Position numbers and translations under genes: made by a program. Below, in pieces: positions 5,536-40,862 of a stretch of 64,000 nt of DNA; within the stretch, counting starts at the first letter, position 1, and the number at the start of each line of letters is the position of its first letter. This DNA comes from Candidatus Manganitrophus noduliformans (GTDB lineage Bacteria > Nitrospirota > Nitrospiria > SBBL01 > Manganitrophaceae), in the NCBI RefSeq assembly GCF_012184425.1, contig NZ_VTOW01000004.1, forward strand, positions 124,001 to 188,000, in the 5' to 3' direction. Under the pieces are notes generated by a model, which was given only the letters and a program-made list of their open reading frames with translations, was not told the DNA's origin and did not search any database.

Positions 5536-5560
5536 AGTGCGCCTGTCCTATCCGCAATTG

Positions 5561-5620: not shown

Positions 5621-5642
5621 TTCTTCTTCCACATTACTACTG

Positions 5643-6686: not shown

Positions 6687-6712
6687 GATGATCACCTCCG
6701 AAATTAACGAGC

Positions 6713-21787: not shown

Positions 21788-22270
21788 GTGATGGCTCAAC
21801 TTTTAGCGGAAGAAGTCATTCGAAAAATAGAAGAATCGGCCGGGCTGTATTATCGGTTGACTCTGTTGGTCGCTCCGTCAGGTGGAGGGAAAACCTCAGT
21901 TCTACAGGACGCAAAAGAGCGCATCGGCGTACCGCTCATCAATCTCAACTTAGAACTTTCCCGACGAATGTTGGATCTTACAGCGCGGCAGAGGGCGCTC
22001 CAAATTCCGAAGCTGTCAGAGGAGATTGTCATCCAAGCTGGCAACAGCGTGATCCTGTTGGACAATACCGAAATTCTTTTCGATATATCTTTAAAGCAAG
22101 ATCCGCTTCGCCTCTTTCAGGGAATCTCACGGAATAGAACGGTGGTTGCCGCCTGGAATGGTTCGGTAGAGAACAACTATATACTATATGCGGAACCGGG
22201 CCATCCGGAATACCGAAGATATCCCATTCGCGATTTATTGCTGGTCTGCCCGGCGAGGACGATCGCGTAA
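21788..22270 (+). CDS. brxF: BREX-3 P-loop protein BrxF
   Basis: 160 residues; the start is GTG or the ATG directly after it. Its Walker A is LLVAPSGGGKTSVLQD, and a Walker-B-like strand is NSVILLDNTEILF. The C-terminus (YRRYPIRDLLLVCPAR) matches BrxF, a small ATPase found only in type 3 BREX. It is the first gene of the operon, 21 bp before brxC. Its biochemical role in defence is not well defined. Confidence 0.85.
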   Translation: MMAQLLAEEVIRKIEESAGLYYRLTLLVAPSGGGKTSVLQDAKERIGVPLINLNLELSRRMLDLTARQRALQIPKLSEEIVIQAGNSVILLDNTEILFDISLKQDPLRLFQGISRNRTVVAAWNGSVENNYILYAEPGHPEYRRYPIRDLLLVCPARTIA

Positions 22271-22291: not shown

Positions 22292-25200
22292 ATGAAATAC
22301 GGCGATCTGATTCAGTTTGAACCTATCGAATCCGTGGTTCAGCTGCGGGCTGCGGACGAGACCGCTGCCGCCCGGCAGCTTGTCCGGACCTATGTCATCT
22401 CCGCGGAGATGGCCGAGAAGCTGGTCAACCTTGTCGTTCCTCAGCTTCAGTTCGACCAGCCCATGGACAACAAGGGGCTGCTGGTCGTCGGCAACTACGG
22501 CACCGGTAAGTCGCACCTCATGTCTGTGATCTCCGCGCTGGCGGAGAACGGTGATCTGTCCGCACATCTCAACGACGGCAATGTCGCTCAAGCAGCGGGC
22601 AAGATCGGAGGCCGTTTTAAGGTGGTCCGGACCGAGATCGGGGCGACCACCATGTCCCTGCGCGAGATCCTTGTGGCCGAGATGGAGGAACATCTGGCCA
22701 CCATGGGCGTGTCCTACTCCTTCCCGTCCGCTGACAAGGCGCCGAATAACAAGCGGGCCTTCGAGGAGATGATGGCCGCGTTCCATCAGGAGTATCCCGA
22801 CCACGGCCTGCTCCTGGTGGTGGACGAGATGCTCGATTACCTGCGCACCCGCAAGGATCAGGAACTCATCCTCGATCTCAACTTCCTGCGCGAGATCGGC
22901 GAGGTCTGCAAGTACCTGCGGTTCCGCTTCATCGCCGGTGTCCAGGAAGCCATCTTCGACAGCCCGCGCTTTTCCTTTGTGGCCGACAGCATCCGCCGGG
23001 TGAAAGACCGCTTCGAGCAAATCCTCATCGCCCGCAAGGACGTCAAGTTCGTCGTGGCCGAGCGTCTACTCAAGAAGACTGCCGACCAACAGGTGAAAAT
23101 CCGGGAGTACCTGACTCCCTTCGCCAAGTTCTATGGCCGCATGAACGAGCGCATGGATGAGTTCGTGCGCCTCTTCCCCGTGCATCCGGACTACATCGAT
23201 ACCTTCGAGCGGGTCACCGCGGTGGAAAAGCGCGAGGTGCTCAAGACTCTTTCGCTGGCCATGAAGAAGCTGCTCAGCCAGAACGTTCCGGACGACCGGC
23301 CCGGAGTCATCGCCTATGACGGTTACTGGATGACCTTGCGCGAGAACCCGTCCTTCCGCGCCGTCCCGGACATCAAGGCGGTCATCGACTGCAGCCAGGT
23401 GCTCGAATCCCGCATCCAGCAGGCTTTCACCCGTCCGGCCTATAAACCCATGGCGATCCAGCTCATCCATGCGCTCTCCGTTCACCGGCTTACGACGGGC
23501 GACATTTACGCCACCCTGGGCGCGACGGCTGAGGAGCTGCGCGATGCCTTGTGCCTCTTTCAGCCGGGCATCGAGGAACTGGGCGGCGATCCGGCCGATG
23601 ACCTGCTCTCCCAGGTGGAGACCGTTCTACGGGAAATCCACAAGACAGTGAGCGGGCAGTTCATCTCGTCCAACCCTGATAACCGCCAGTACTACCTGGA
23701 CCTCAAGAAGACCGACGACTTCGACGCTGTGATCGAGAAGCGGGCCGAAAGCCTCGATTCTTCGCAGCTCGACCGCTACTACTACGAGGCGCTTCGGCGG
23801 GTCATGGAGTGTACCGACCAGACCTACGTGACGGGCTACAGGATTTGGCAGCATGAGCTCGAATGGCTGGAGCGCAAGGCCGCGCGCCAAGGATACCTCT
23901 TCTTCGGCGCGCCCAACGAGCGTTCCACCGCAGTGCCACCGCGGGATTTCTATGTCTACTTCATCCAACCCTTTGACGCTCCGCACTTCAAGGACGAGAA
24001 GAAGCCCGACGAGCTGTTCCTGCGCCTGACGAACATGGACGAGGCGTTCCGCACAGCGCTTCGAAGCTACGCCGCAGCTCTGGACCTCGCGTCCACCTCC
24101 TCGGGCCACGCCAAGTCCACCTACGAATCCAAGGCGTCGAACTTCCTGCGGGACCTGGTGCAATGGCTGCAAAAGAACATGGCCACCGCCTTCGAGGTGA
24201 CCTACCAGGGGCGCGCCAAGTCCCTGACAGAGTGGGCCAAGGGCAAGTCCCTCCGCGAGCTATCGGGCATCGGCTCCCACGAGCGCATCAACTTCCGTGA
24301 CCTGGTGAACACCACCGCGGGCATCTGTCTCGGGACCAACTTCCAGGACCAAGCTCCCGAATACCCCTTCTTCTCGGTGCTCATCACCGGAACGAACCGG
24401 GCCCAGGCCGCGCAGGATGCCCTGCGCGCCATCGCAGGCCAGAACCGCACCAAACAGGCCACCGCGGTGCTGGACGCCCTTGAGCTTCTCGACGGTGACC
24501 GGCTCGACCCCTACCGGTCGAAGTACGGCAGGCACATCCTCGGCATCGCGAAGAAAAAGGGCCACGGCCAGGTGGTCAACCGCTCCGAACTGATCCATGA
24601 CATCCTCGGCATCGAGTACCTTGCCCCGCAGACCCTCCGGCTGGAGCCCGAATGGGCCGTGGTTGTCCTAGCTGCGTTAATCTACTCCGGCGAGGTGGTG
24701 CTGGCCATCCCGGGCAAGAAATTCGACGCCACCGGCCTGCCGCAACTGGCCGGGATCGGTATCGACGAGCTGGCCCAGTTCAAGCACATCGAGCGGCCCA
24801 AGGACTGGAACCTCCCGGCGCTCAAGGCGCTTTTCGAACTGCTCGGACTTACGCCGGGCATGGCCCAACTGGTCACTCAGGGAAAGGACGAGCCGGTTCA
24901 GGAGCTACAGAAGGCCGTCACCACCACCGTGGAACGGCTGGTGCTCGTGCAGCAGAGCCTGCAGACCGGGCTGTTCTTCTGGGGCCGCAACCTGCTGGCC
25001 GAGGACGAAGTCAAGAAGCTGCGCGCCAAACTGGATGAGACCAAGACCTTCCTTGAATCCCTGCAAGCCTACACCACGACCGGCAAGCTCAAGAACTTCC
25101 GCTACGACGCCTCGGAAGTAACAGCGCATCGGGACGGGCTCAGTTCCCTTGCCGAGATCAAATCGCTTGAGGAACTGGTGGTCGACCTCGGGTCCACGGC

Positions 25201-26020
25201 ATCGTACCTCTCCACCGCCGAGGCGGTCCTGCCCACCGGCCACGAGTGGATCGACAAGATGAAGGCGACGCGGGACGAAGTCCTCGCTCAGATCAGCGAT
25301 CCGGCGAAGCGAAGCGCGGTCACCTTCCGCCAGCAAATCCAGCGCAAGCTCAACGACCTCAAAAAGACCTACCTGCTGGCCTACCTCTCCATGCACGCGA
25401 GAGCACGCCTGGGGGTGAACGAGGACAGGCACAAAGCCCAGCTCATGGGCGACGAGCGGCTCAAGGACCTGCAGAAACTTTCCACTATCGACCTGATGCC
25501 GCGCCAGCACCTCTCGAACTTCCAGAATCGGCTCGCCGAGTTGAAGAGCTGCTTCGCAGTCACCGAGCAGGAACTGGATGCGTCGCCGGTCTGCCCGCAC
25601 TGCAACTTCAAGCCCGGTGCGGAACCGCCTGCGGCTCCCGCTGCGACGATGCTGGACGCCCTGGACGGCGAGCTCGATAAGCTGGTCGAGAACTGGACTC
25701 AGACGCTGCTCGCCAACCTCGAAGATCCGACCACCAAGGGCAACCTGAGCCTGCTCAAGCCCGAACCGCGCAAGCTGGTGGACGGCTTCATCAAGAAGCG
25801 GACCCTGCCGGACGACCTCAACCAGGACTTCATTCACGCCTTGCAGGAGGCGCTCTCCGGGCTCACAAAGGTCTCGGTCAAGATCGGGGATCTGCGCGAC
25901 GCCTTGCTCGCGGGCGGCTCGCCGGCCACCCCGGCGGAGATGTGGAAGCGGTTCGAGGAATACCTGGACGGGCTTACCAAGGGCAAGGAGCCCGGCAAAG
26001 TGCGGATCGTACTCGAGTAA
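22292..26020 (+). CDS. brxC: BREX ATPase BrxC (DUF6079 family)
   Basis: 1242 residues, the usual BrxC/PglY size. Walker [12 protein letters not shown] lies near residue 67 and Walker [13 protein letters not shown] near 171. A large helical middle follows, with a CPHC pair near residue 1110. It is the AAA-type ATPase core common to BREX systems, needed for both methylation-dependent self-marking and phage exclusion. It is followed by pglXI after 10 bp. It has no frameshift and looks functional. Confidence 0.92.
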
Positions 26021-26030: not shown

Positions 26031-28832
26031 ATGGCTAAGAATCCATACGATCAGAGCATCTTCGACATGCAACCTGCCGCCAAGTCGCAGGGTCCTATCG
26101 AATGCCTCGGGATGGCGTTTGAGAACAATGAGAAGCGCAGGGAATACTTCCTGGAAAAGCTGCGCGAGAAGCTGAAGGACCCCGAGTTCCGCAAGATCGA
26201 GGGATTTCCCATTGGATCGGACGAGGACATCCTGGCGCTGTCCGACCCGCCGTACTACACCGCCTGCCCGAACCCGTTCATCGCCGACTTCATCAAGCGC
26301 TACGGCAAGCCCTACGACCCGAGCAAGCCGTACAGCCGTGAGCCGTTTGCCGCAGATGTGAGCGAGGGCAAGAACGACCCGATTTACAACGCCCACTCCT
26401 ACCACACCAAGGTCCCGCACAAGGCGATCATGCGGTACATCCTCCATTACACCGAGCCGGGGGATGTGGTCTTCGATGGGTTCTGCGGGACCGGGATGGC
26501 TGGGGTAGCCGCTCAGTTATGTGGAGACCGAAGGGCAATATCATCCCTTGGTTATCCGCTGACCGCGGATGGAAGCATCTTGGATCAGGACAAGCAGGAG
26601 ATTTCTCGATGCGGGGAACGAGTCCCTGTCCTAAACGACCTCTCCCCCGCCGCAACATTGATAGCCGCTGGTTACAATCTGACAACTGATTCGAAGGGGT
26701 TTGCGCAACTCGCCAAGAAGCTTCTGGACAAATTCAACGGCAAATACGGATGGATGTATGAGACGTGGGACCCCAAGACCGGCGCGACTTGTCCGATTGA
26801 CTTCACCATCTGGTCGGAAGTCTTTTCCTGCCCCCATTGCGCCGGTGAATTGGAGTTTTGGAACTTGGCTTGGGATGAAGAATCGGGAACGTTAGCCGAT
26901 CAGCCCATCTGTACGCATTGCTCTGCAGAGGTGTCCAAGCGCGATCTCGTCAGACGCACAACTACCTATTATGACAAGGCGGTAAAGGCTACTCGGACGC
27001 GTCAGGTCCTGCGTCCAGTGGAGATCCGATACCAGCACCAAGGAACCAAGAAGAGCAAGAAGCCCGACAAAGACGATATTGCAGCCCTTGAGAAGATAGA
27101 AAAACTGATCGGGTCCATCGAATACCCGAAGGAATTGATGATGTTTGTGCCGGAGGGGGAAGAATGGGGCGATCTCTATCGTGGTTATCACGAAGGGATA
27201 AGCAGAACGCACGATTTTCATTTGCCGCGCCAGCTCGTCGCCTTCTCTCTGCTCTGGCGAATGGCTGATGATCTGCCCAAAGAAGAGATGAAGCGGCTCT
27301 GGCGGTTTACTTTGCAGAGCGTTGTTGTGAGCTTTACGCGTCGGAATCGATTTCGCAAGAAAGCCTATTCACAAGTAAACACTAACCTGAGCGGCACACT
27401 CTACGTCGGATCAACAATCAGTGAACCGAGTCCAACCTATGTGTTGACCGGCAAGATCAAGCGATTTGGCAACGCAATTCCAAAGGGTGGATCTGCTGTG
27501 GCCATAACCACCCAGTCTCTCGCCTCAGTGCTGATCCCTGAAAACTCAGTTGATTATGTCTTCATCGATCCGCCCTTCGGTGACAACCTGCCTTACGCCG
27601 AGTTGAATTTCTTGTGGGAGGCTTGGCTCCGTGTTTTCACGAACTCGGGGCAGGATGCCGTTGTCAGCGGCAAGCAGCGGAAAGACCTGGCCGTCTACGC
27701 GAACATGATGACGGACTGCCTGAAACAGGTTTATCGCGTCCTCAAGCCGGGCCGGTGGGTGACGGTTGAGTTTCACAATTCCAAGAACGCCGTTTGGACC
27801 GCGATACAGGAGGCTTTGGGACGGGCCGGTTTAATCATCGCCGATGTCAGCGTGCTCGATAAGGGGATGAAGACCAAGAAGCAGATGCACGCCAAGGCGG
27901 TCGACAAGGACCTGGTCATCTCCGCCTACAAACCGAACGGCGGTCTCGAAAAGCGATTCCAACTCCAGGCTGGAACCGAAGAGGGAGTGTGGGATTTCAT
28001 TCGAACTCACCTTCGGCAGCTTCCCGTGTTCATCGTTAAGGGCGGGTTCGGGCAAATGATAGCGGAGCGACAACAAGTTCTGTTGTTCGACCGCATGGTA
28101 GCCTTCCACGTTCAGCGCGGAGTCAGCGTACCCCTCTCTGCGGGCGACTTTTACCAGGGACTGGCCCAGCGCTTCCCCGAGCGTGACGGTATGTATTTCC
28201 TGCCGGAACAGGTTGCCGAATACGAACGCAAGCGGATGACATCGCGTGAGCTACTGCAGCTCGACCTCTTCGTGTCCGATGAAGCCTCAGCCATCCAATG
28301 GCTCAAGCAGCAAATCGTCAGAAAGCCCCAGACCTTCCAGGAACTTCAACCACAGTTCATGCGAGAGACTCAAGGCGGTTGGCAGAAGTACGAAAAGCCG
28401 CTGGAGCTTTCCGAGTTGCTTGAGCAGAACTTTCTTCGCTACGACGGTAACGGCGAAGTCCCGAGCCAGACACACAGCTACCTCTCCACGAATTTCAAAG
28501 AGCTGCGCAACCTGCCCAAGGACGACGAGCGCCTGCGCGCCAAGGGCAAAGACCGCTGGTACGTGCCCGACCCGAACAAGGTCGGCGACTTGGAGAAGCT
28601 ACGCGAGAGGTCCCTGCTCAAGGAATTCGAAGACTACCGAACCTCAAGCCAGAAGCGCCTGAAGATTTTCCGCATTGAGGCAGTCCGCGCCGGTTTTAAG
28701 AAGGCGTGGCAGGAGCGCGACTATGCCACCATCATCACCGTGGCCCGCAAGATTCCCGAGGACGTCCTGCAGGAGGACCCGAAACTCCTCATGTGGTACG
28801 ACCAGGCGATGACGAGAACAGGAAGGGAATAG
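26031..28832 (+). CDS. pglXI: BREX-3 adenine-specific DNA methyltransferase PglXI
   Basis: 933 residues. The N-terminus has LSDPPYYTACPNPF. The SAM-binding motif is GDVVFDGFCGTGMAGVAAQ, and a second catalytic-type motif is YVFIDPPFGDNLPYAEL, followed by VYRVLKPGRWVTVEFHN. A zinc-finger-like insert (CPHC...CTHC) lies near residues 265-305. The C-terminal ~200 residues are probably for target recognition. It methylates host DNA at a non-palindromic site in BREX. An extra gene starts two bases after its stop codon. Confidence 0.92.
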   Translation: MAKNPYDQSIFDMQPAAKSQGPIECLGMAFENNEKRREYFLEKLREKLKDPEFRKIEGFPIGSDEDILALSDPPYYTACPNPFIADFIKRYGKPYDPSKPYSREPFAADVSEGKNDPIYNAHSYHTKVPHKAIMRYILHYTEPGDVVFDGFCGTGMAGVAAQLCGDRRAISSLGYPLTADGSILDQDKQEISRCGERVPVLNDLSPAATLIAAGYNLTTDSKGFAQLAKKLLDKFNGKYGWMYETWDPKTGATCPIDFTIWSEVFSCPHCAGELEFWNLAWDEESGTLADQPICTHCSAEVSKRDLVRRTTTYYDKAVKATRTRQVLRPVEIRYQHQGTKKSKKPDKDDIAALEKIEKLIGSIEYPKELMMFVPEGEEWGDLYRGYHEGISRTHDFHLPRQLVAFSLLWRMADDLPKEEMKRLWRFTLQSVVVSFTRRNRFRKKAYSQVNTNLSGTLYVGSTISEPSPTYVLTGKIKRFGNAIPKGGSAVAITTQSLASVLIPENSVDYVFIDPPFGDNLPYAELNFLWEAWLRVFTNSGQDAVVSGKQRKDLAVYANMMTDCLKQVYRVLKPGRWVTVEFHNSKNAVWTAIQEALGRAGLIIADVSVLDKGMKTKKQMHAKAVDKDLVISAYKPNGGLEKRFQLQAGTEEGVWDFIRTHLRQLPVFIVKGGFGQMIAERQQVLLFDRMVAFHVQRGVSVPLSAGDFYQGLAQRFPERDGMYFLPEQVAEYERKRMTSRELLQLDLFVSDEASAIQWLKQQIVRKPQTFQELQPQFMRETQGGWQKYEKPLELSELLEQNFLRYDGNGEVPSQTHSYLSTNFKELRNLPKDDERLRAKGKDRWYVPDPNKVGDLEKLRERSLLKEFEDYRTSSQKRLKIFRIEAVRAGFKKAWQERDYATIITVARKIPEDVLQEDPKLLMWYDQAMTRTGRE

Positions 28833-28833: not shown

Positions 28834-30471
28834 TTGCCGTTGTTGGAAGATAATAAATGCAAGATTAACGACAGAGATATCTATTTAGAGTTTGATAAAT
28901 TTAAAAAGATTTGCGGCGAATGTAATGTCTCTGTCAGCGATAGATTGTTGGAAACATACGAAAGACATGGGTTGCTTTACCCGTCATATAGGATCATCAG
29001 ACCTAAGGAATACCTCCAAAAGCTATTCGAGCAACATCACGGTCCTGACAGATACAAGAATGTAATTGAGGTGCCTGATGAATATGGAAATTTATTAAAG
29101 TTCGAGCATGAAGAACTAGATAGGTGGCAGCACTCAATTTTCCCGGAATTTAATAAAGCTTTAATGGAAGGTCATCCTCTCGACCAGGCATATAAAAGGG
29201 GTGAATCCTTCATTCAAAGGCCATTAATCGAGGTATACAGGAATTGGGATGAGTATAAAATTGTTTTAGAAATAACGATTGAAGGAAATCCCATAAGAAA
29301 AACCGACACACTTGCCAGACATTTCTATTCTCCCTGGCAAATATATCTCCTTGAAGAGGCAAATCAGAAGCATATTCGTAGAATTAATGTGCTCATACCT
29401 CTTGAAGAGGGTAAACAATATACTGCTCCTAAAGAACCCCAGAAAATAGCAGTTGCAGAATGGATGGAGCACTTCAAATCTCTCTGGGAATACAGGCTAA
29501 AGGAAAATCTTCTCTTTGCCAAAGCCCTTGAAGGGGTAAAAGGGAATGTCCTTAAAGGCGATGATTTGAAACAATTCTATAATGATCGCGAAGCGCTATC
29601 TTCTGACATTTGTGCAAGAAATCCCTACGATTTATGGATTAAGTTCCTGCAAGCTTTATGTGGGCTTTATTTCGATTACAGAGAAGAGGAGAAATATAGA
29701 CTCTCAGAATGCCTGAGAAACGATATTAAAAGTGTCGTTAATATTTTGATGCATGGTTCAAAGAAACTATATAGAGATATTATTAACGATGTGGGGACGC
29801 ACCTTGGTGGAAGAACCTATTTTCATGTTCTGCCACTTGAAAGGATATATCCGGAATATGAAAGCCATCTAAAGAGAGAAGCGAAGCTGTACCTCGAATC
29901 GGTATTAAAGGACTATAACGGTGAAGTGCCATATTCTTTGAAAATTGATAATAATAGTGCAATTGATGAAATTATAGACTTCGCATTTATTTCAGGAAAC
30001 GAAACACTTCTTGTTTCCGTTATCGGCATTAATAAAGAATATTTCTCACCGTCATACTTTGGTGATGAAGCAATCTGGTCTTTTGTCAGGTCACTTGCAG
30101 TTGCCGTTGAGTCATGGGTTAAAGAGATATCACAACAGAATGATTTTAGAGGCGCTATTGTCAAGATAACTGCAGGAGACTTTGATTTGTGTTGCAACAA
30201 GCTGCAGAAAAGCTGTGGAAAGACAAATATGGAGGTTTATAATTATTCCGATCTTAAACAATTCTTAAATTCTATCCCTGCAACTCAGTTTGAAAGATGC
30301 GGGAAAGATTTATCGTGGATGAAATATATCGTTCGGGCATACCTGATAAGAAACTATGCTGCTCACCATACCCGATTAGATCCTGAATTATTTGGCAACA
30401 CGTTGATTGAGTTATACAAATCACTTTTATTTTTATTGTTCTATGCGTGGAAGGCTAAGCCGAAACCATGA
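28834..30471 (+). CDS. novel BREX-embedded protein with C-terminal HEPN-type Rx4H motif
   Basis: 545 residues with a TTG start; GGAAGGG lies six bases upstream. It starts one base after pglXI and overlaps brxHII by ATGA, so it is fully integrated in the operon. The N-terminal ~60 residues look like an HTH (FDKFKKICGECNVSVSDRLLETYERHGLLYPS, MerR-like). The middle is alpha/beta and unassigned. The C-terminal helical domain carries RNYAAH (506-511), the Rx4H motif of HEPN RNases, followed by LIELYKSLLFLLFYAW. The gene is clearly AT-richer than its BREX neighbours, suggesting later acquisition. It is not part of canonical BREX-3. RNase function is inference. Confidence 0.8.
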   Translation: MPLLEDNKCKINDRDIYLEFDKFKKICGECNVSVSDRLLETYERHGLLYPSYRIIRPKEYLQKLFEQHHGPDRYKNVIEVPDEYGNLLKFEHEELDRWQHSIFPEFNKALMEGHPLDQAYKRGESFIQRPLIEVYRNWDEYKIVLEITIEGNPIRKTDTLARHFYSPWQIYLLEEANQKHIRRINVLIPLEEGKQYTAPKEPQKIAVAEWMEHFKSLWEYRLKENLLFAKALEGVKGNVLKGDDLKQFYNDREALSSDICARNPYDLWIKFLQALCGLYFDYREEEKYRLSECLRNDIKSVVNILMHGSKKLYRDIINDVGTHLGGRTYFHVLPLERIYPEYESHLKREAKLYLESVLKDYNGEVPYSLKIDNNSAIDEIIDFAFISGNETLLVSVIGINKEYFSPSYFGDEAIWSFVRSLAVAVESWVKEISQQNDFRGAIVKITAGDFDLCCNKLQKSCGKTNMEVYNYSDLKQFLNSIPATQFERCGKDLSWMKYIVRAYLIRNYAAHHTRLDPELFGNTLIELYKSLLFLLFYAWKAKPKP

Positions 30472-33311
30472 ACGCTGGCGACTGGGTTTGGAGCGATGAC
30501 CACGGGCAGCTCTGTCAGGTCATCGAGACCCAGGCGCTCTGGGGTGAGACCACCTGCCGTGTCTGGCTGCCCGGGCGTGACTCCGTGGTCCGTATCCCGG
30601 CTTCCAAGCTCAAGTCCATGGAAAGCGCTGGCACCGGCTCGCCGGATGCCATCGCCTACATCGCCGCAGCCGCGCGGGTGGCCGACGCCCTGACCCAGGA
30701 CGTTCTGCTCGCGCCCATCGAGTCCTCCGTCATCCCGCTGCCGCACCAGATCCGTGCTCTATCCCGAGCCATCGCCAACGACCGGGTGCGCTATCTCCTG
30801 GCGGACGAGGTCGGCTTGGGCAAGACCATCGAGGCTGGTCTCATCATGCGGGAACTTAAGCTCCGCGGGCTGGTCAAGCGGACGCTGGTCATCGCCCCGA
30901 AGGGACTGGTGAGCCAGTGGGTCAGCGAGATGCGCTTCCACTTTGGAGAGACCTTCCAGCTCGTGCTCCCCGAGGACATCAAAACGCTTAAACGGATCGC
31001 CCCTGCATCCAGTCCGGAAAACGGGGACAAGGGGAATCATGATCCCGAGGCTCTGCCCGCCAACGCCTGGCAGATGTTCTCCCAGATAGTCGTGCCGATG
31101 GATTCGGTCAAGCCCCTGGACAAGCGCCGTGGCTGGACCGCGGCCCAGGTGGGCGAGCACAACCGCGAACGGTTCGAGGACCTGATCTCCGCCGGCTGGG
31201 ACCTGATCATCATAGACGAAGCGCACAGACTCGGTGGCAGCACCGACCAGGTGGCCCGCTTCAAGCTGGGCCAAGGACTCGCCGAGGCCGCACCGTATTT
31301 CCTCCTGCTTTCGGCCACCCCTCACCAGGGCAAGACCGACGCCTTTCATCGGCTGGTTTCCCTGATCGACGCCCAGGAGTTCCCGGACATCGGCAGCGTC
31401 ACCCGCGAGCGGGTCCAGCCGCATGTCATCCGCACCGAGAAGCGCCGCGCCATCGATGCCGATGGGAAGCCCCTGTTCAAACCCCGGCGCACGCAGCTTG
31501 GCCCGGTCTCCTGGGAAGAGCGTCACCGCAGTCAGCAGCTCCTCTATGAGGCGGTCACCGAATACGTCCGCGAAGGATACAACCAGGCCATGCGGGAGAA
31601 GCGGAGCTACATCGGCTTTCTGATGATCCTGATGCAGCGTCTGGTGGTCTCCAGCACAAGCGCCATCCGCACCACACTCGAAAGGCGGCTTGAAGCGCTG
31701 GCCGCACCCCAGGAGCAACTGACCCTGTTCCCTGCCACGACCGAAGAGGAGTGGGCGGACCTGGACGGCCAGGAGCAGATCGATGTGCTACTACGCACCC
31801 GCCTCAAGGCGCTAAAAAACGAGCGCGCCGAGGTCAAGCTGCTCTTGGAGGCCGCGGCCCGTTGCGAGCAGATCGGCCCGGACGCCAAGGCCGAGGCGCT
31901 GCTCGACTGGCTCTATCGCCTCCAGTCCGAAGAGAGCGACCCGGAGCTCAAGGCGCTGGTGTTCACCGAGTTCGTGCCCACCCAGGAGATGTTGCGTCGT
32001 TTCCTGACTGAGCGCGGATTCTCGGTCGTCTGTCTGAACGGCTCCATGGACATGGAAGAACGCAAGCGGGTCCAGGAGGCATTCGCCAAGGATACCCGCA
32101 TTCTAATCTCCACCGACGCCGGCGGGGAGGGATTGAACCTCCAGTTTTGCCACGTGGTGATCAACTATGACATCCCCTGGAACCCGATGCGTCTCGAACA
32201 GCGGATCGGCCGGGTGGATCGTATCGGCCAGGCCCATGCGGTGCGTGCGGTCAACTTCGTCTTCGAGGACTCGGTCGAGCACCGGGTCCGTGAGGTTCTG
32301 GAGCAGAAGCTCGCCGTCATCTTCGAGGAATTCGGCATCGACAAGACCGGCGACGTCCTCGACTCGGCCCAAGCGGGCCACATGTTCGACGAAATGTATG
32401 TCGAGGCGATCCTCAACCCCGAAAAGGTGGAGGACTCCGTGGAGAGCGTGGTTGCCCGCCTGCAGGAGCAGGCCCGCGAGGCTCGCGCTACCGCATCCGT
32501 GCTCGGCGCGACCGAGGACCTGGAGCCTGGCGAAGCCCAGCGGCTGCTGACCCACCCCTTGCCGTATTGGGTCGAGCGCATGACCGTAAGCTACCTGAAG
32601 GCGCATGGCGGCCAGGCCGAGAGGAGAAGCCAGAGCTGGAACCTCACCTGGCCCGACGGCGAAACCTACGAGAATGTGGTCTTCACCGGCAAGGAAGCCG
32701 AGAGGCTTCCGGCCGCCCGGCACCTCACCCTGGAAGAGCCGAAGGTCCGCGGACTGGCCATGCGGCTCCCACGTTTCGCGCCGGGCCAGCCGGTCCCCAT
32801 TGTGTCGATCCCAGGTCTCTCCGCGGAAGTTCAAGGCGTCTGGTCCTTGTGGCGAATCGCGATTGCCACCATGGAGTGGAACCGTAAAAGGATCATGCCT
32901 CTCTTCCTGGCCGACAACGGCATGGTCTATACGCCGACCGCCAGACACGTGTGGGACCAGCTCCTCGCGGCAAGCACACAGGTCCGGTCCATTCTTGACG
33001 CCGCAGTCTCCCAAGCCGCTTTCGCAAAGCTGCAGAACGCCGCGGAAGAACACGGGAAGCCCATCTACGAAGTGCTCGTGCAAGAGCACCGGGGCCGCAT
33101 CGCACGCGAGCGCGAGAAAGCCGATTACGCCTTTGCCGCGCGCCGCAAGACTGTCGAACGGATCGGCCTGCCCCAGGTCCGCAACTATCGCCTGAACCTC
33201 CTCTCGCAGGAAGAGCGAACCTTCCGGGAACAGCTTGATCAGAAGGCCCATGCCTATCCCGAAATGGTGCCGCTGCTTGTGATTCGGGTGGAGGGCGGTG
33301 GCCATGAATAG
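30468..33311 (+). CDS. brxHII: BREX-3 SNF2/DEAH helicase BrxHII
   Basis: 947 residues. The motifs are LADEVGLGKTIEAGLIMREL (I), LIIIDEAHRLGG (II, DEAH), LLLSATPHQGKTDAFHRL (III), a second RecA domain with ISTDAGGEGLNLQ (V) and EQRIGRVDRIGQ (VI). The C-terminal ~300 residues are BREX-specific. It is an SNF2-type DNA translocase. It is coupled to the upstream HEPN-type gene by a 4-bp overlap and overlaps pglZ by 14 bp. Confidence 0.92.
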   Translation: MNAGDWVWSDDHGQLCQVIETQALWGETTCRVWLPGRDSVVRIPASKLKSMESAGTGSPDAIAYIAAAARVADALTQDVLLAPIESSVIPLPHQIRALSRAIANDRVRYLLADEVGLGKTIEAGLIMRELKLRGLVKRTLVIAPKGLVSQWVSEMRFHFGETFQLVLPEDIKTLKRIAPASSPENGDKGNHDPEALPANAWQMFSQIVVPMDSVKPLDKRRGWTAAQVGEHNRERFEDLISAGWDLIIIDEAHRLGGSTDQVARFKLGQGLAEAAPYFLLLSATPHQGKTDAFHRLVSLIDAQEFPDIGSVTRERVQPHVIRTEKRRAIDADGKPLFKPRRTQLGPVSWEERHRSQQLLYEAVTEYVREGYNQAMREKRSYIGFLMILMQRLVVSSTSAIRTTLERRLEALAAPQEQLTLFPATTEEEWADLDGQEQIDVLLRTRLKALKNERAEVKLLLEAAARCEQIGPDAKAEALLDWLYRLQSEESDPELKALVFTEFVPTQEMLRRFLTERGFSVVCLNGSMDMEERKRVQEAFAKDTRILISTDAGGEGLNLQFCHVVINYDIPWNPMRLEQRIGRVDRIGQAHAVRAVNFVFEDSVEHRVREVLEQKLAVIFEEFGIDKTGDVLDSAQAGHMFDEMYVEAILNPEKVEDSVESVVARLQEQAREARATASVLGATEDLEPGEAQRLLTHPLPYWVERMTVSYLKAHGGQAERRSQSWNLTWPDGETYENVVFTGKEAERLPAARHLTLEEPKVRGLAMRLPRFAPGQPVPIVSIPGLSAEVQGVWSLWRIAIATMEWNRKRIMPLFLADNGMVYTPTARHVWDQLLAASTQVRSILDAAVSQAAFAKLQNAAEEHGKPIYEVLVQEHRGRIAREREKADYAFAARRKTVERIGLPQVRNYRLNLLSQEERTFREQLDQKAHAYPEMVPLLVIRVEGGGHE

Positions 33312-35307
33312 CTGGCGCGATCAAATCCTGAAGGAGTTCACCCCGAAGGTCGCACTACTTACCTTGGTGGCCGACCCGGACGGGCTTCTGCTTGAAGAGC
33401 GGATTCTCGAGGGTATCCGCGAGCGTGGATTCGATCTCATCCCCTTTGAGGACCACGTTGCTTTCCGCTACGCCTATGAATCGAAATTCCGCGCCAGGTG
33501 GGATCGTGGTGAACAGACCGACCTTGTGGTGGTGTTGCGGTCACCATCAAACGACCTCGCCGCTCTGCCCTATGACCTCCTTCAGGTCGGTCGCAAGCTT
33601 TCCTTCAACCTGGGCGACATCTTCCCTAATCTCAGCTATCCGATTGTTACAGCCCTGGACCGGGGAGACCTCGATTCCCTCTATGAGGCCCAGACAAAAC
33701 ATGCACCCGGTCAGATGGGCGACAATGCGACCAAAGATTTTATTCTCCGGCACGTTTTTGAAATCGCCCCGGAGCTAATCAAGCAGCCATCGGATTTGCT
33801 TCGAGTTCTCCTCCGGCGCCATTACCATGCTCAGCGAATTCCAGCGATCCTTGATGATCGGTTGATCCAGCTGCTGCGCCAAAGGAATACCTTTGACGAC
33901 TGGCCGCTTGAAACCCTCGTTCCGGACCGGGAGGCCTTCTTTATGTTCCTTCAGGAGCGCTGGCCGATCTTCCTCGACCGCGAGGCAGCCAAAGGGTTCG
34001 GCGTCCGGGAAGACAAAGGGCCCTATGGTTTGGCTGTGGAGGGTCCTGTTGACCTCCCATTCGATCACCAAGATATCCGGGGCTACATCGATAATCTGTT
34101 TCTCGAGGGGTTGCTTCACCCTGTGTTCCACGAGTATACGGATATCCTTTCTAAAATATGGGTGAATATCGGCATTCGAACTGACCCATCCCAAGACCGA
34201 TCCAGTCGCCTTAAGAAGCTCATTGAGAGCTTACAGGCATCCACCCCGGCAGAGGACGCGAGGTACATAGATTGGTTTCATTTTGCTCGTGGGTGGGCAG
34301 AGATGGTATTACTGTCGAATCAGCAAGGCGAGGTCATCTCTGAAAAGACCACCTTGAGCATCGAGAGTCTGCAAACTCACGTGGATGCCCGTTTCGCCGC
34401 ATGGCTTGAGAAGCGGTACGCCGGCCTCGTGAACTTGCCGCCGGTCCCGCCGGTTATGCTTCACCACGTTCCTCGTTTCTTGGCCCGCCAGATCGGAGGG
34501 GATCGGGTCGCTAAGATTGCGCTGCTCCTGGTAGATGGCCTTTCTCTGGACCAATGGATTGTCGTCCGTGAAGCGCTTGCCTCACGACAGTCCGGTCTCC
34601 TCTTCAGGGAGGAAATGGTGTTCGCCTGGATTCCCTCGATTACCTCCGTTTCGCGGCAGGCCGCTTTCTCTGGCAAGCCGCCGATCTTCTTTCCGAATAG
34701 CATTCAGACCACTGATAAGGAGTCGGCGCTGTGGACGCAGTTTTGGGCCGACGAAGGGTTCTTGCCGAGCCAAGTTGTGTACGCAAGGGGATTGGGTGAC
34801 GGCAGCCTGGAAAGCATCACGGAGGCACTTTCCCATCCCCAAGCAAGAGTCGCCGGGCTGGTCATCGACAAGGTCGACAAGATCATGCACGGGATGGAAC
34901 TGGGCACAGCGGGCATGCACAACCAGGTGTGCCAATGGGCTCAGCAGTCTTACATAAATACGCTTCTCGGTCTCCTTCTGGATCGGGGATTCCGCATCTA
35001 CCTGACCTCTGACCATGGCAATATCGAAGCGGAAGGGTGCGGCCATCCCGCGGAAGGGGCCGTAGCAGATTTGCGCGGTGAACGCGTTCGCGTTTATTCC
35101 GACGCAGTTCTTCGTAACAAAGTGAAGGAGCGTTTTCCTACGGCGCTGGAATGGAACCCTATAGGCCTCCCGGAGGACTATCTTGCCCTCCTGGCCCCTG
35201 CTCGGCAGGCGTTTGTTCGCAAAGGAGAAGGCATCGTCAGTCATGGCGGAATTTCGATCGAGGAGCTCATTGTCCCTCTAGTCCAAATCGAAAGGAGGGT
35301 CTCATGA
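33298..35307 (+). CDS. pglZ: BREX phosphatase-fold protein PglZ
   Basis: 669 residues. The alkaline-phosphatase-superfamily core is in the C-terminal half: IALLLVDGLSLDQW (metal-binding Asp), SITSVSRQAAFSGK, and LTSDHGNIEAEGCGHP (DHG metal-binding motif), then SHGGISIEELIVPLV at the end. PglZ is the hallmark of all BREX types and is likely a metal-dependent nuclease or phosphatase; its exact substrate is uncertain. It overlaps brxA by 4 bp. Confidence 0.93.
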   Translation: MAMNSWRDQILKEFTPKVALLTLVADPDGLLLEERILEGIRERGFDLIPFEDHVAFRYAYESKFRARWDRGEQTDLVVVLRSPSNDLAALPYDLLQVGRKLSFNLGDIFPNLSYPIVTALDRGDLDSLYEAQTKHAPGQMGDNATKDFILRHVFEIAPELIKQPSDLLRVLLRRHYHAQRIPAILDDRLIQLLRQRNTFDDWPLETLVPDREAFFMFLQERWPIFLDREAAKGFGVREDKGPYGLAVEGPVDLPFDHQDIRGYIDNLFLEGLLHPVFHEYTDILSKIWVNIGIRTDPSQDRSSRLKKLIESLQASTPAEDARYIDWFHFARGWAEMVLLSNQQGEVISEKTTLSIESLQTHVDARFAAWLEKRYAGLVNLPPVPPVMLHHVPRFLARQIGGDRVAKIALLLVDGLSLDQWIVVREALASRQSGLLFREEMVFAWIPSITSVSRQAAFSGKPPIFFPNSIQTTDKESALWTQFWADEGFLPSQVVYARGLGDGSLESITEALSHPQARVAGLVIDKVDKIMHGMELGTAGMHNQVCQWAQQSYINTLLGLLLDRGFRIYLTSDHGNIEAEGCGHPAEGAVADLRGERVRVYSDAVLRNKVKERFPTALEWNPIGLPEDYLALLAPARQAFVRKGEGIVSHGGISIEELIVPLVQIERRVS

Positions 35308-36077
35308 GCCCTTGGGTGAATCAGATCGGGTTCAGTCAGCGGGTCCGTTTGGAGTGGTTTGAGCAGACGGCTAATCTCGTTTTGGCGGGGAACGATAAAT
35401 CCGCTGTCAACAACGCGCTGCAAAAGCTCCTGAAGGACAAGGTCTCTGTCAATGGCCAAGCAGAGCGGGGGAATCGCGAGAAGATCATCACGATCCTTTT
35501 GAAGGTATGGCTCAATGCGCCGGCCAAGCTCGAGTCGTTGCGCGTCCGAGGACTGGAGCTGCTCAGGGGTCTTCCGCGAGCGGACCACATGGCCGTTCAT
35601 TGGGGGATGGTCATGGCCGTCTACCCGTTCTGGTCGGGTGTAGCCACACAGGTCGGCCGCCTTCTGAAGCTGCAAGGGTCCGCGACCGCAGCTCATGTCC
35701 AGCGGCGGGTCCGCGAGCAATATGGTGAGCGGGAGACGGTCTCCCGTGCCACCCGTCGCGTGCTTCGCTCCTATCTGGACTGGGGCGTACTCCAGAAGAC
35801 AGACACGAAGGGAATCTATACCGCCGGAACGACGCAGCCCGTTGATGACTCTCTTCTGATTGCGTGGCTGGTCGAAGCGGCCATGCATGCGAGGGCCAAT
35901 GGCTTGACCACTCTCAAGGACCTACTCGACAGCCCCAGCTTCTTCCCGTTCCGACTCAAGCCGACACACGCCGAAAGCCTTGTGGGCGCCTCATCCAGAC
36001 TCGATATTCTTCGTCATGGATTGGACGACGATCTGATCATGTTGCGGAAGCAACCTACCAAGAGAGATTCACCATGA
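35304..36077 (+). CDS. brxA: BREX protein BrxA (DUF1819)
   Basis: 257 residues from MSPWVNQIGF, with AAAGGAGG seven bases upstream and an ATGA overlap with pglZ. All helical, DNA-binding-like: ALQKLLKDKVSVNG, REKIITILLKVWLNAP, then a winged-helix-like region (YGERETVSRATRRVLRSYLDWGVL). It matches the BrxA family (DUF1819), an HTH-type protein of BREX types 1, 3, 5 and 6. As the last gene it completes the brxF-C-pglXI-HII-Z-A order of BREX type 3. Confidence 0.88.
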   Translation: MSPWVNQIGFSQRVRLEWFEQTANLVLAGNDKSAVNNALQKLLKDKVSVNGQAERGNREKIITILLKVWLNAPAKLESLRVRGLELLRGLPRADHMAVHWGMVMAVYPFWSGVATQVGRLLKLQGSATAAHVQRRVREQYGERETVSRATRRVLRSYLDWGVLQKTDTKGIYTAGTTQPVDDSLLIAWLVEAAMHARANGLTTLKDLLDSPSFFPFRLKPTHAESLVGASSRLDILRHGLDDDLIMLRKQPTKRDSP

Positions 36078-36270: not shown

Positions 36271-37509
36271 ATGCCACGGGATGTCACTGATTATTTGCGA
36301 GGACCAGAAGTCGATCTTTCTGAAATGATATGGCAGATGCCTCCAGCCTATCACCAACGGAGAGAAGAAGATAATACCATCACTTTTTTTCGATCGGGTC
36401 AGCCTAAGGGTGAAGAAAATTTTGCTCTTCGTCTTACAATCAAAAATGGACACATAACAAAAGTAATTCAAGGTCCTGCTCTCTCAGATGAAGATCTGGA
36501 ACAAATCCATAATAAAATTGAGCAGAATCTTCTCCAGCTAACCGGTGATCACTTTCATCGAGGTGTTCTCTTCAGCTCCACTCCTATACAGGGAAGTTGG
36601 AGATACAAAGATAAGTTTCAAATTCTACCGCCTCCGCCTGAAAGCCCCATGCCTGGCCCAGGCCATGACTTTGGTTTTGCTAGATACCCATTCGTTTTAG
36701 AGCTGAAATATTCAGGAAGTGCTAATTTTAAGATTAATATGATGAGAGGAACGAAAACCACGGAAGAATTAAGCTATCTGTTTTCTAGTCTTCTTGAAGG
36801 TTCTATTTATGGTCTTGGGCAGAGGCCGCGATCACATTGGGTCCTCTTGCCAGAACGTAGATCTTTTTGGCAACGTTTGTTCGCTAAGACGAGGAGATGG
36901 GATGTTGGCTTTTGTAATGAATTCTATACATTAGGGGATATGGGGAAAATTCATAAATTTTCTTCTAATGATCACCTCCCACCACTTCCTTTTGAGGAAT
37001 CAAAGAAATATTATCTTGAGCGGTGTGATAGCCTGAATAGTGATGGTTTGAAGTTGCCAGAGAATTTTGAGGAGTCGCTTGACCGATTTTTTTCACTCCC
37101 TATTGAGAAGAGGGAGTCTTATCTGCGTGCAGGATACTACTTTCAACGTTCTTCAATGATATTTGATTACTCTTCGTCAATTTCCTACATAGCATTGATT
37201 CAAGCTGTTGAAGCAATTATGCCGTCAATTTCTTCCTCAGAGGTATGTGAGACATGTAAAAGCACCCTTCGTAAGGGGCCAACATCATTGTTTGCTGAAT
37301 TTTTAGAAAGCCTTCTGGGAAATTCTTCTGACGCGCATCGCCACCTGAAGGTTTTTTATAGTGTTCGATCTGCTCTAAGCCACGGTGGAAAGATTCTCCA
37401 TCTAGATAGAGTTGGAGGGGGAGGAGTTCTTTCTATGGGAGAGCTTGCAAGGTTTATAAATTTGAGGCGAATTGTGCGTTTGGCATTAGTAAAATGGTTG
37501 TATGAGTAA
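36271..37509 (+). CDS. hypothetical protein with C-terminal HEPN-like (Apea/Rx4H) domain
   Basis: 412 residues, AT-richer than BREX and tra. The N-terminal ~250 residues are alpha/beta and unassigned (RLTIKNGHITKVIQG; FVLELKYSGSANFKI). The C-terminal helical domain has SYIALIQAVEAIMPS, a CETC pair and FYSVRSALSHGGKI. The RSALSH segment (366-371) is an Rx4H motif, and the pattern resembles Apea-like HEPN domains. It lies 190 bp after brxA in the same orientation. It may be a separate cargo gene or a BREX accessory; RNase activity is inference. Confidence 0.7.
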   Translation: MPRDVTDYLRGPEVDLSEMIWQMPPAYHQRREEDNTITFFRSGQPKGEENFALRLTIKNGHITKVIQGPALSDEDLEQIHNKIEQNLLQLTGDHFHRGVLFSSTPIQGSWRYKDKFQILPPPPESPMPGPGHDFGFARYPFVLELKYSGSANFKINMMRGTKTTEELSYLFSSLLEGSIYGLGQRPRSHWVLLPERRSFWQRLFAKTRRWDVGFCNEFYTLGDMGKIHKFSSNDHLPPLPFEESKKYYLERCDSLNSDGLKLPENFEESLDRFFSLPIEKRESYLRAGYYFQRSSMIFDYSSSISYIALIQAVEAIMPSISSSEVCETCKSTLRKGPTSLFAEFLESLLGNSSDAHRHLKVFYSVRSALSHGGKILHLDRVGGGGVLSMGELARFINLRRIVRLALVKWLYE

Positions 37510-37555: not shown

Positions 37556-39085
37556 TCACTCAGCCTTTTTTTCTCTGTTCATTTCGTTCCTTATGTCCTG
37601 GTAGATCTTCCGATTAATCCTCTCCCACAATCCCAACGGCGTCGGCTCTTTCCGCCTGAAGCGGGGAAGGACCCTTGCATAATCCCATCCCGGAGGGATC
37701 TCCGGCTCCACCCAGGAGAGCTTCACCTTGACCGGCTCCCTTTGCCAGTTGATGAATGCCTCTCCCACCTCGAGTTGATGAAGAAGAATCTCCGGCCGGA
37801 CCTTCTGATCATACATTTGCCGCTGAGCGAGGGATGAGGATTGCCCTTCGGTCCGCCGGGGATTCACATAGCGGCTCAGGCTGATCACCTGTTCGCTATC
37901 CGAAGTCGATTGCCCTTCCGAGACCTGGGCAAACCACCGGATCTCCTGCCCGAAGAAATCCGAGGCCCAGAGCGCCGACTCCAGACTCTTCAATTTCAGG
38001 AAGACTTTTGTTTCCGTGTTCCCCATCACTGTCTCCAGAAATCCTTTCGAGAGTCCCTTCTCGATATCCGAAAGCTGGGAGGTCAACTGAAAGGCCGCCA
38101 CCACCGCGATTCCGGCCTCCCGCGCTTGCTCAAAAACAACCGAGAAATCGGGGATGGCATAAGAGCCGAATTCATCCAGAACGACCAGAGCCGGCATCAG
38201 AGGTTGGAAGTCTTTTTCACTGTAGATCGCCCCGATGGAAGACTGAAGATCGGTCAGAATCACCTTCCCCAGTTTCTCGGATTTCTTGGTTTCTTGGAGT
38301 CTCGGCAACGCGGCGTAGATGATCTGTCCTTTTTTAATCGCCTGGTAGAAATCGACATCGCTCACCGGCCGGCAGAGGAAGTCCCCCATCGGCCTACTGG
38401 AAATCGCTCCCAACTCAGAGATCAGCCCGGAGAGAAGATCGCTCATCTGCCCCATCGTCTTGAACTTCCGGACGAACTTCTCAACCTCGATCAGCGATTC
38501 GAAATTGCTGTCATTGTAGAGCTCTTGCCTCAGAATCCGGAAGGCCTGGTCGGGGCTTTCAAACAGTGCCAGGACATCCCGGTAGCTGAAGCTCCGCTTC
38601 AACCGGTGGAGCGCCCGGACCATCTTGAGGATCGCCTCGTAGGCGAGGTTGGAATAGTACGACGCGGGATGGCCTTCCGGGACAGAAGGCATCAGCTTGT
38701 GTATCTTGCTGGCGACGACGCCCGCCTCCTTCTCCGCGTCTTTGGCCAGGAGGGGATTGTAGGCATGGGAGAGGGTCGGATCCTGCGGATCGATCACCCT
38801 CAGATCGGCGGCCCGGCCGCAGGCCTGCGCCAGCCAGGCCATCTTGGCAAACCCGGAGTGCCGCCGCTTCCCATCCATGAAGATCACCGCCCCTCCCCGC
38901 CGGATCTGCTGATAGATGAGCGAGAGAAGAAAGCATGTCTTCCCGGCCCCCGATGAGCCGACCACCGCCATGTGCTGGGTCAGCAGCCGGTCGGAAAGAA
39001 AGATTTCCCTCCCGCTTTCTCCGTTATATCCCAGGACAACGCCGGGACGAGGCCCGAAATAGTCGATGCGTTCCGCTTCCGACAT
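37556..39085 (-). CDS. traD: type IV coupling protein (TraD/VirD4-like ATPase)
   Basis: 509 residues. The Walker A is VVGSSGAGKTCFLLSL (residues 41-56), and the substrate strand AVIFMDGKRR follows. Walker B is MPALVVLDEFGSYAIPDF, and the conserved GIAVVAAFQLTSQL follows it. There is no N-terminal transmembrane segment; instead a small two-helix membrane protein is encoded immediately upstream. It couples the DNA-relaxase complex to the T4SS. It is shorter than F TraD (~717) but the ATPase is complete. Confidence 0.9.
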   Translation of the reverse strand: MSEAERIDYFGPRPGVVLGYNGESGREIFLSDRLLTQHMAVVGSSGAGKTCFLLSLIYQQIRRGGAVIFMDGKRRHSGFAKMAWLAQACGRAADLRVIDPQDPTLSHAYNPLLAKDAEKEAGVVASKIHKLMPSVPEGHPASYYSNLAYEAILKMVRALHRLKRSFSYRDVLALFESPDQAFRILRQELYNDSNFESLIEVEKFVRKFKTMGQMSDLLSGLISELGAISSRPMGDFLCRPVSDVDFYQAIKKGQIIYAALPRLQETKKSEKLGKVILTDLQSSIGAIYSEKDFQPLMPALVVLDEFGSYAIPDFSVVFEQAREAGIAVVAAFQLTSQLSDIEKGLSKGFLETVMGNTETKVFLKLKSLESALWASDFFGQEIRWFAQVSEGQSTSDSEQVISLSRYVNPRRTEGQSSSLAQRQMYDQKVRPEILLHQLEVGEAFINWQREPVKVKLSWVEPEIPPGWDYARVLPRFRRKEPTPLGLWERINRKIYQDIRNEMNREKKAE

Positions 39086-39328
39086 CTACTTCTCTCCTTT
39101 TTGGATTCCGGTCCTCATCCATTTCTTGATTCCGGCGTGGATCACCATCACGAAGAGTATCTCGTCCACAAGGACGAGGCCGATTCCCCACCAGGGATCT
39201 GATTCAGGGGCAACCGGCACAAACGCGCGGAGCGGGAGGAAGAAGGCGAGGTGGGACGCAATCAACCCTGTGATCCCGATCGTCCGTGGCCAGCGCCGGG
39301 TCTTGCCGGCGCGGCGCGGCTGCGTCAT
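39086..39328 (-). CDS. small two-helix membrane protein, possible coupling-protein anchor
   Basis: 80 residues from MTQPRRAGKT; longer frames upstream overlap the HD gene. Two hydrophobic helices are visible: TIGITGLIASHLAFFLPL and WGIGLVLVDEILFVMVIHAG. The ends are positively charged. The stop codon abuts the traD ATG (TAGATG). The topology is that of the N-terminal membrane domain of VirD4/TraD, so it may supply the anchor missing from the ATPase. Confidence 0.65.
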   Translation of the reverse strand: MTQPRRAGKTRRWPRTIGITGLIASHLAFFLPLRAFVPVAPESDPWWGIGLVLVDEILFVMVIHAGIKKWMRTGIQKGEK

Positions 39329-39332
39329 CGGT

Positions 39333-40862
39333 TCATTCTGCTCTCTGGATCGATCCTCCATACCTTCCCCCTGCGATCTGGACCTCATACGGCGGGCACT
39401 GCCTCCACCGCTCCACCGCCTCCGGAGCCAGTGACATCAGGGCCTCCGATGAAAGGGCCACCACGCACTTGTAGGTTGTCCCGCTGGCGGTGATATTGAA
39501 CAGGGCGGAGGGGTTGGCCTTTCTCCCCTCGACCTCTTCTATCAAAACCTTCTTCTCTTTCAACATCTCCACCAGAACCGGCCAGGCAGGATGGAGCTTG
39601 CCTACGGGTCTTCGGATCGGAAGCCGCTGTTGCAGCTCCTGTGGAAGTTGATCGAGCGTCCTCTCCCGGAGGGCATGCTCCAGGACAAATACAATCTCCC
39701 CGGCCGTAAATCCTTCTGGATAGCCCCCCTTGTACCGATTGACATTGATCTTGGGGAGCGCCGAGAGAAACGCTTCCCAGAGATAAGGCTTGACCCCCTC
39801 CACCTGCTCCCGCCCGAGTTGCTGCTCCGCTTCGTGTGAGGCGGCGTCGGCCTTGTGCATTAACTCCAGCAGGGTATAGGCCAGCGGCGGGGCGGCGGTC
39901 GGAAGCTCCTCCGGGTTGTGGTAGTAGCGGAGCGATAAAAAGAGCGCCTCCCGGTGGATCGGCGTCATCTCGCTATAGAACTCCGGAAGGCCGGCGACGA
40001 TCAGGGCGGAGATCCGGTCATGAGGGAGTTTTCGGTCGATCCACCGGTCTCCCTCTTTCCGGTAGGCAAAGAGTTTTCCGAGATCATGGGAGAGGGCCAT
40101 CAGGTAACAGAGTCTTTTTCCCTCCTCCGGGTGATCTTCGGCAATCCGGACCATCGCCTCCACGGTCCGGGCGGTATGCTCGATGAGACCGCCGGGGATG
40201 TTCAGATGGTCCGAGAGGGAGGCGGGGTGATCGGGAGAAGCGGCAAACGCGGAGAGGATCTTCTCAACCAGGGGAGAGAGAACCCCGAGTTCAGCCGCCT
40301 GCCGGTGAAGCCGGGTTTCTTTCGGATCGGAGAGGCGAACACGGAACTCGAGAGGGTGATCCGGAATGACGGGGAGCCGGGAGAATGACGGCAGGGCCTC
40401 TCCCCCTTTCCGGTTTCCCCACTGGCGAAGGCCCAACCAAACAGCCCCGCCGGCCGGAAGGACGATCATCAGCATTCCAAAAGCGCTATCTCTCAGAAAG
40501 ATCCACCGCAGTCGGTTCTCCGCCAGCCAGAGCCGCCATGTCGATCCAGCCATTTTCTCGACGCCATCCCATTCCGGGACGGTTTTTAATTTCTGAAGAA
40601 TGACTTCCTCTCCGGCATTTCCGTAAACCGCCTGATAGGAGGCCCATGCTGCCTCACGGTGCTGGAGGTGAATCTTCCCGGAGAAGAAAGCGCCGGCCTG
40701 TGCAGGAGGCGACTGAGGGCCACTGGAGATCGTCTCCGTGCGCTCCCTGCTCTTTTCAATCTGGGCTTCAAACAGCTCCGGTAATCCGGCTTCGGCGCGC
40801 AGCGTCATCCCCGCCAGAAGAACGGCCGCCAGCGCAGCAGATGCAAGATGTTGCTTCATCAA
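39333..40862 (-). CDS. HD-domain protein (TraI_2/MobH-like)
   Basis: 509 residues. It has a signal-like N-terminus (ALAAVLLAGMTLRAEAG) and a second membrane helix near residue 130 (FGMLMIVLPAGGAVWLGL). The HD domain follows: IPGGLIEHTARTVEAMVRI, LSHDLGKLFAYR (the HD pair), LPHDRISALIVAG and KADAASHEAEQ. The C-terminal ~120 residues resemble the TraI_2 C-terminal region. MobH-type relaxases share this HD fold, so it could be the relaxase or a related conjugation factor. The membrane segments argue for an accessory role. It is the first gene of a three-gene minus-strand operon divergent from tra. Confidence 0.75.
   Translation of the reverse strand: MMKQHLASAALAAVLLAGMTLRAEAGLPELFEAQIEKSRERTETISSGPQSPPAQAGAFFSGKIHLQHREAAWASYQAVYGNAGEEVILQKLKTVPEWDGVEKMAGSTWRLWLAENRLRWIFLRDSAFGMLMIVLPAGGAVWLGLRQWGNRKGGEALPSFSRLPVIPDHPLEFRVRLSDPKETRLHRQAAELGVLSPLVEKILSAFAASPDHPASLSDHLNIPGGLIEHTARTVEAMVRIAEDHPEEGKRLCYLMALSHDLGKLFAYRKEGDRWIDRKLPHDRISALIVAGLPEFYSEMTPIHREALFLSLRYYHNPEELPTAAPPLAYTLLELMHKADAASHEAEQQLGREQVEGVKPYLWEAFLSALPKINVNRYKGGYPEGFTAGEIVFVLEHALRERTLDQLPQELQQRLPIRRPVGKLHPAWPVLVEMLKEKKVLIEEVEGRKANPSALFNITASGTTYKCVVALSSEALMSLAPEAVERWRQCPPYEVQIAGGRYGGSIQRAE

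Follow-up and report, generated by a model that had tools for sequence, protein, structure and literature searches.

A candidate HEPN-type gene carried as cargo within the type 3 BREX operon of Candidatus Manganitrophus noduliformans

A gene of Candidatus Manganitrophus noduliformans that separates pglXI from brxHII in a type 3 BREX operon, here termed P0001, is reasonably likely to encode a two-part abortive-infection protein, in which an N-terminal sensing or adaptor module would be combined with a C-terminal HEPN-type RNase, and which would be carried as exchangeable BREX-3 cargo. The family to which it belongs is described here for the first time, and searches of Pfam, NCBIfam, PADLOC and the PDB sequences returned no significant match to the protein. 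The DNA analysed is a stretch of 64,000 nucleotides (hereafter the window), to which coordinates refer unless another locus is named.

The host operon has the order brxF-brxC-pglXI-P0001-brxHII-pglZ-brxA, with all genes on the forward strand. Its type 3 BREX set, present in order, consists of brxF (21788-22270; PADLOC BrxF 3.6e-66, NCBIfam BREX_3_BrxF 4.3e-56), brxC/pglY with DUF6079 (22292-26020; PADLOC BrxC 2078 bits, Pfam DUF6079 E=0), the type 3 BREX adenine methyltransferase gene pglXI (26031-28832; PADLOC PglXI 1333 bits), the helicase gene brxHII (30468-33311; PADLOC BrxHI|BrxHII 1583 bits) and pglZ (33298-35307; PADLOC PglZ 1026 bits). The operon had been called complete in a preliminary description; these five genes score as type 3 BREX, and brxA (35304-36077, 257 aa, with an ATGA overlap with pglZ) is placed by position only, as this open reading frame matches no BrxA model.

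P0001 itself (28834-30471, forward strand) encodes 545 aa from a TTG start. The open reading frame listing and the translation agree with the geometry first reported for it, since the pglXI stop codon TAG occupies 28830-28832 and is followed after a single base by the P0001 start at 28834, and the P0001 stop is overlapped by the brxHII ATG (30468) as ATGA. The stretch AGGAAGGG 5' of the TTG is a plausible ribosome-binding site, and GGAAGG ahead of the brxHII ATG resembles one. The base composition of P0001 is foreign to its BREX neighbours, as had also been noted at the outset: its GC content is 0.377 compared with 0.557 for pglXI and 0.640 for brxHII, and its GC3 is 0.37 compared with 0.70 and 0.82, respectively, with a GC3 range of 0.64-0.84 across brxC, pglXI, brxHII, pglZ and brxA. 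Promoter-like sites inside P0001 show no excess (4, with 4.2 expected from shuffles) and terminator-like sites are little above expectation (4, with 2.3 in shuffles).

Several other genes of the window were noted as well. Directly 3' of brxA lies an AT-rich gene of 412 aa (36271-37509, forward strand; 41.5% GC, GC3 0.34) with no family match, which carries VFYSVRSALSHGG near its C-terminus and is thereby a further HEPN-like (Rx4H) candidate, located where the BREX operon ends on its 3' side. Just downstream of BREX, the reverse strand at 37556-40862 encodes a TraD-like coupling ATPase (TIGR03743, 7.3e-32) and a further protein with weak relaxase and Cas3-HD matches, together a possible remnant of a conjugative element. 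Also on the reverse strand, a 284-aa protein of the HEPN-superfamily DUF4145 (54272-55126, 6.6e-11) adjoins a 198-aa protein with a weak DUF4145 match (53210-53806), and next to these DUF4145 genes stands an 862-aa ABC-type ATPase (50466-53054) that matches the PADLOC candidate PDC-S06 (2.5e-229). A DUF5677 protein and a PLD-fold protein with similarity to RE_NgoFVII (1.1e-10), encoded on the reverse strand at 4630-6695, form a possible defence pair.

The C-terminal part of P0001 was modelled confidently with AF2: residues 340-545 (the C-terminal 206) are predicted to be all-helical (pLDDT 85, pTM 0.85), and the HEPN-like helical domain is placed at residues 404-545 (30043-30468). It holds RNYAAH at residues 506-511 (30349-30366), an Rx4H motif with N after R and the predicted RNase site, as well as ESWVK at residues 426-430 (30109-30123), which corresponds to the second HEPN hallmark, Ex3K. 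In the model, E426 falls within helix 406-433, helix 496-509 ends with R506 and N507, H511 lies in a loop and the last helix spans 522-541, so that RNYAAH stands at the end of the penultimate helix. According to the motif description in a survey of the HEPN superfamily, the Rx4-6H motif has N, D or H after R and sits at the end of the penultimate helix, and the Ex3[KR] acid lies upstream in helix 2 (PMC3710099).

RNYAAH is the sole Rx4-6H of the protein. A bare Rx4-6H was rejected as evidence of HEPN, given that 93% of P0001 shuffles contain one, while 4% of shuffles contain RN-x3-H and 1.7% have an R[NDH]x3H among their last 60 residues. The motif is retained in the homologues, as RNYVVH in a protein 63% identical to P0001 and as RNYFSH in one that is 29% identical, which is the conservation that had been asked of it beforehand. 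RNY..H and the upstream glutamate, E426 in P0001, are invariant in all three full-length proteins, on which the catalytic argument for the family is based, and Ex3K is present in two of them. Only 16% of C-terminal columns are invariant, with R, N, H and the upstream E among them, and at this conservation rate the chance of R, N and H all being invariant is about 0.4%. Membership of DUF4145 was ruled out by profile comparison with ten DUF4145 proteins from Nitrospirota, in which the similarity found by hhalign extends no further than the motif and falls short of significance. The HEPN family models in Pfam give no match to P0001 at E up to 10, and comparison of the confident C-terminal model with PDB and BFVD by Foldseek gave no significant match (best E 0.48). 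Thus, the C-terminal HEPN-type domain proposed initially agrees with RNYAAH, Ex3K, the helices and the placement of the motif, and a HEPN fold is highly likely, yet unproven because of the Foldseek result; RNase activity is quite probable.

Whole-protein AF2 modelling from two sequences reached a pLDDT of 43.7, with the N-terminal 246 residues uninterpretable. The helix-turn-helix proposed for the N-terminus is suggested only by the MerR-like stretch LETYERHGLLYP, and no library match confirms it. Relatives of this half were found with a profile of the three aligned full-length proteins, which returned proteins of 610 aa in G011 (2.4e-6) and 601 aa in G389 (2.5e-4) that are 42% identical to each other. 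What they have in common with P0001 is a module at residues 16-174 (28879-29355) comprising the MerR-like candidate HTH and the motif H-[FY]-Y-x-P-W-Q. This module is found by hmmsearch (6.8e-7 and 2.3e-5), beating all 2000 shuffled decoys in both directions, and hhalign of residues 16-174 against these forms, with a third from G094 added, gives a probability of 95 and E 4e-8; outside these residues no similarity of P0001 to the G011 and G389 proteins is demonstrable. The C-termini of the latter match an OLD-like TOPRIM (PF20469) at 1.1e-4 and 5.8e-4, both slightly below the curated cut-off, and a C-terminus of this form matches the TOPRIM region of GajA (1.3e-5). A shared module with differing C-termini usually points to a sensor whose effectors can be exchanged, and the alignments thus suggest one N-terminal module that is joined to either of two unrelated and exchangeable killer domains, a HEPN-like domain or an OLD-type TOPRIM.

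The homologue search went deep in a single phylum, Nitrospirota. Among 396 Nitrospirota genomes, one homologue of P0001 was detected, the 63% identical protein of the metagenome-assembled genome 'Nitrospirae bacterium Kmv42' (G347), and a profile of the two sequences retrieved the third full-length member, the 29% identical protein of G414 (E 7.7e-72). The G414 gene lies 12 nt behind a type IIG restriction-modification (R-M) gene of 1032 aa (PADLOC 4.7e-241). The Kmv42 protein is encoded by a solitary gene on a 3.5 kb contig, next to what looks like a toxin-antitoxin pair (judged as such from the sequences), in a 100%-complete genome in which no type 3 PglXI or PglZ is found; it is the one full-length member in three without an adjoining R-M or BREX gene. 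As to the TOPRIM forms, that of G389 lies 220 nt behind a type IIG/ISP gene of 1164 aa, and those of G011 and G094 are solo. Plasmids and phages searched by tblastn with P0001 and its homologue L045 gave no match, IMG/VR scans with P0001, A1, A6, A7 and A8 gave no relative, and a contig scan of all genomes with two short patterns returned only the known Kmv42 contig, a result that says little on other phyla.

The P0001 family is therefore not BREX-specific, because the G414 protein adjoins a type IIG R-M gene and the Kmv42 protein stands alone. The dedicated BREX partner envisaged in the preliminary description is not upheld by these neighbourhoods, and the occurrence of homologues outside BREX, which it had regarded as adverse to its proposal, is observed in part: two of the three full-length members lie outside, one of these beside type IIG. 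A link of the family to DNA methyltransferases is suggestive only.

The junction in which P0001 lies was surveyed in 12 loci carrying both pglXI and brxHII, a small and non-random sample made up of the window, four Nitrospirota loci (L011-L014), three plasmids (L017-L019) and four viral contigs (L022, L024-L026). E. coli genomes, screened with an Aeromonas pglXI, yielded no BREX-3 DNA. Five loci (the window, L012, L013, L014 and L022) carry genes at the pglXI|brxHII junction, which is empty in the other seven, and outside the window its cargo is unrelated to P0001: three genes ahead of a truncated brxHII in L012, one 231-aa gene in L013, eight open reading frames in L014, among them those of a NACHT-type protein, a protein of 276 aa with REYRHHLVH and a DUF433-like pair, and a HEC-02A ATPase with a 169-aa gene in L022. 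Eight loci have genes at the brxC|pglXI junction, with Schlafen AlbA_2, DUF6602, HEC-01A/B and others. The site between pglXI and brxHII serves as a general cargo slot, and tight packing is a property of this slot and not of P0001, because the unrelated L013 gene overlaps brxHII in much the same way. The translational wiring into BREX first proposed for P0001 is consistent with the tight geometry but is not particular to this gene.

Some of these loci merit separate mention. The 276-aa gene of L014 (2675-3505; 31.5% GC) has a sub-threshold HEPN_Apea match (E 0.53) and is possibly another HEPN cargo of the slot. The IMG/VR contig L022 holds HEC-01A/B in brxC|pglXI and HEC-02A with the 169-aa gene in pglXI|brxHII (5473-7316 and 10078-11618), which makes its BREX-3 locus one operon with two embedded systems. 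In L012 (11321-11692; G357), brxHII keeps only the first 123 codons, which are joined to pglZ; either the helicase has truly been lost or the assembly is faulty.

According to the favoured explanation, P0001 would be translated together with pglXI and brxHII, and its N-terminal module would hold the RNase domain silent until this is released upon phage infection, perhaps once its partner system (BREX or R-M) has been overwhelmed or inhibited; a metal-independent HEPN-type endoRNase would then cut cellular and phage RNA, with tRNA as a likely target, and the infected cell would be halted. The adenine methyltransferase encoded directly upstream (pglXI here, type IIG in G414 and type IIG/ISP in G389) counts in favour of this explanation, and BxaP, a protein with abortive-type protection in the same slot, is a precedent. 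An abortive outcome is moderately probable, whereas failure of BREX or R-M as the trigger is doubtful. Somewhat more doubtful still is the proposal that the N-terminal module guards DNA-modification systems, monitoring PglXI or a type IIG R-M enzyme and freeing the HEPN RNase or the OLD-type TOPRIM when a phage disables them; if true, it would be an ATPase-free counterpart of PARIS and PrrC.

It is only the trigger in the favoured explanation that is contested by an alternative falling a little short of an even chance, namely that P0001 is an independent, solo abortive-infection gene which lies in a cargo-accepting slot and shares BREX transcription, neither sensing nor needing BREX. Such independence is consistent with the unrelated cargo in the occupied junctions (five of 12), with the solitary Kmv42 homologue in a genome devoid of type 3 PglXI and PglZ, and with the protection that BxaP confers in the absence of BREX or type I R-M (PMC10799925), although two HEPN-form members and one TOPRIM-form member directly behind adenine methyltransferases are more than random placement would suggest, in a tiny sample. 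Improbable is a non-catalytic BREX accessory, whose helical domain would bind DNA, RNA or a BREX protein and whose MerR-like N-terminus would target DNA, for example to widen the target range of BREX: some HEPN domains are non-catalytic RNA binders, as stated in the survey's treatment of the superfamily (PMC3710099), and both the MerR-like stretch and the missing Foldseek match to known RNases are in keeping with this role, but the motif R, N, H and upstream E are invariant while 84% of C-terminal columns vary, and family members exist without BREX. An HTH-like N-terminus and a location inside the operon would also suit a regulator restraining BREX expression; however, the size of the protein, its RNase-type C-terminal motif, the TOPRIM nuclease C-terminus of its relatives and the lack of a match to any regulator family make this very improbable.

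With the two-part abortive-infection protein as the preferred reading, P0001 adds a HEPN-type family to the few suicide effectors found inside BREX operons and provides a testable case of one N-terminal module with two killer domains beside different DNA-modification systems. Sensing of BREX or R-M inhibition by the module, if it occurs, would account for the presence of such genes as cargo in operons. The census further suggests that genes are exchanged at BREX-3 junctions, where a search for defence genes would be worthwhile.

Pfam includes a model of the N-terminal domain of HEPN/Toprim-NTD1, and residues 1-339 of P0001 match no Pfam model at E up to 10, because of which the P0001 N-terminus appears to be a different module that follows the same principle. 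In HEPN/Toprim-NTD1, as listed in Table 2 of the survey, one N-terminal module is combined with a HEPN, a TOPRIM or an Mrr-like effector (PMC3710099), a design that the P0001 family resembles in its alternative HEPN and TOPRIM effectors. The arrangement of P0001 had been taken as never described; this claim has to be withdrawn in view of three precedents (PMC3710099, PMC10799925, PMC12839542), with which the accompanying suggestion of an RNA-cleaving, abortive-type back-up agrees. HEPN genes of the pEK499_p136 and RloC families, embedded in Pgl operons with PglX, PglY and PglZ, were proposed in 2013 as a suicide or RNA-cleaving back-up; like P0001 they are co-encoded with Pgl/BREX genes, but they are other HEPN families, and the survey's passages on them do not describe the type 3 pglXI|brxHII slot (PMC3710099). 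HEPN and other back-up effectors, many inside the operon, were reported across BREX types in 2026 (PMC12839542). The closest likeness in position is BxaP, described in 2024 as a HEPN-superfamily protein between pglXI and brxHII of type 3 BREX, with abortive-type protection in tests and homologues also in R-M loci (PMC10799925). BxaP has an N-terminal HEPN domain (DUF4145) and a HEAT-like C-terminus, whereas P0001 has a C-terminal HEPN-like domain without a DUF4145 match, a distinction drawn from the published description of BxaP. The embedded candidates of PADLOC (HEC/PDC) are likewise accessory defence genes inside defence operons, and 'guilt by embedding' has been put forward as a route to such genes (PMC12988326); P0001 and its homologue L045 differ from them in matching no HEC/PDC model. 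Finally, PrrC-EcoprrI and PARIS (AriA/AriB) share with P0001 the idea of a back-up that cleaves RNA and is linked to an R-M or BREX-type system: their sensor is an ABC-type ATPase, of which P0001 has none, whereas their effectors, HEPN in PrrC and TOPRIM in AriB, are the two types that occur in the P0001 family.
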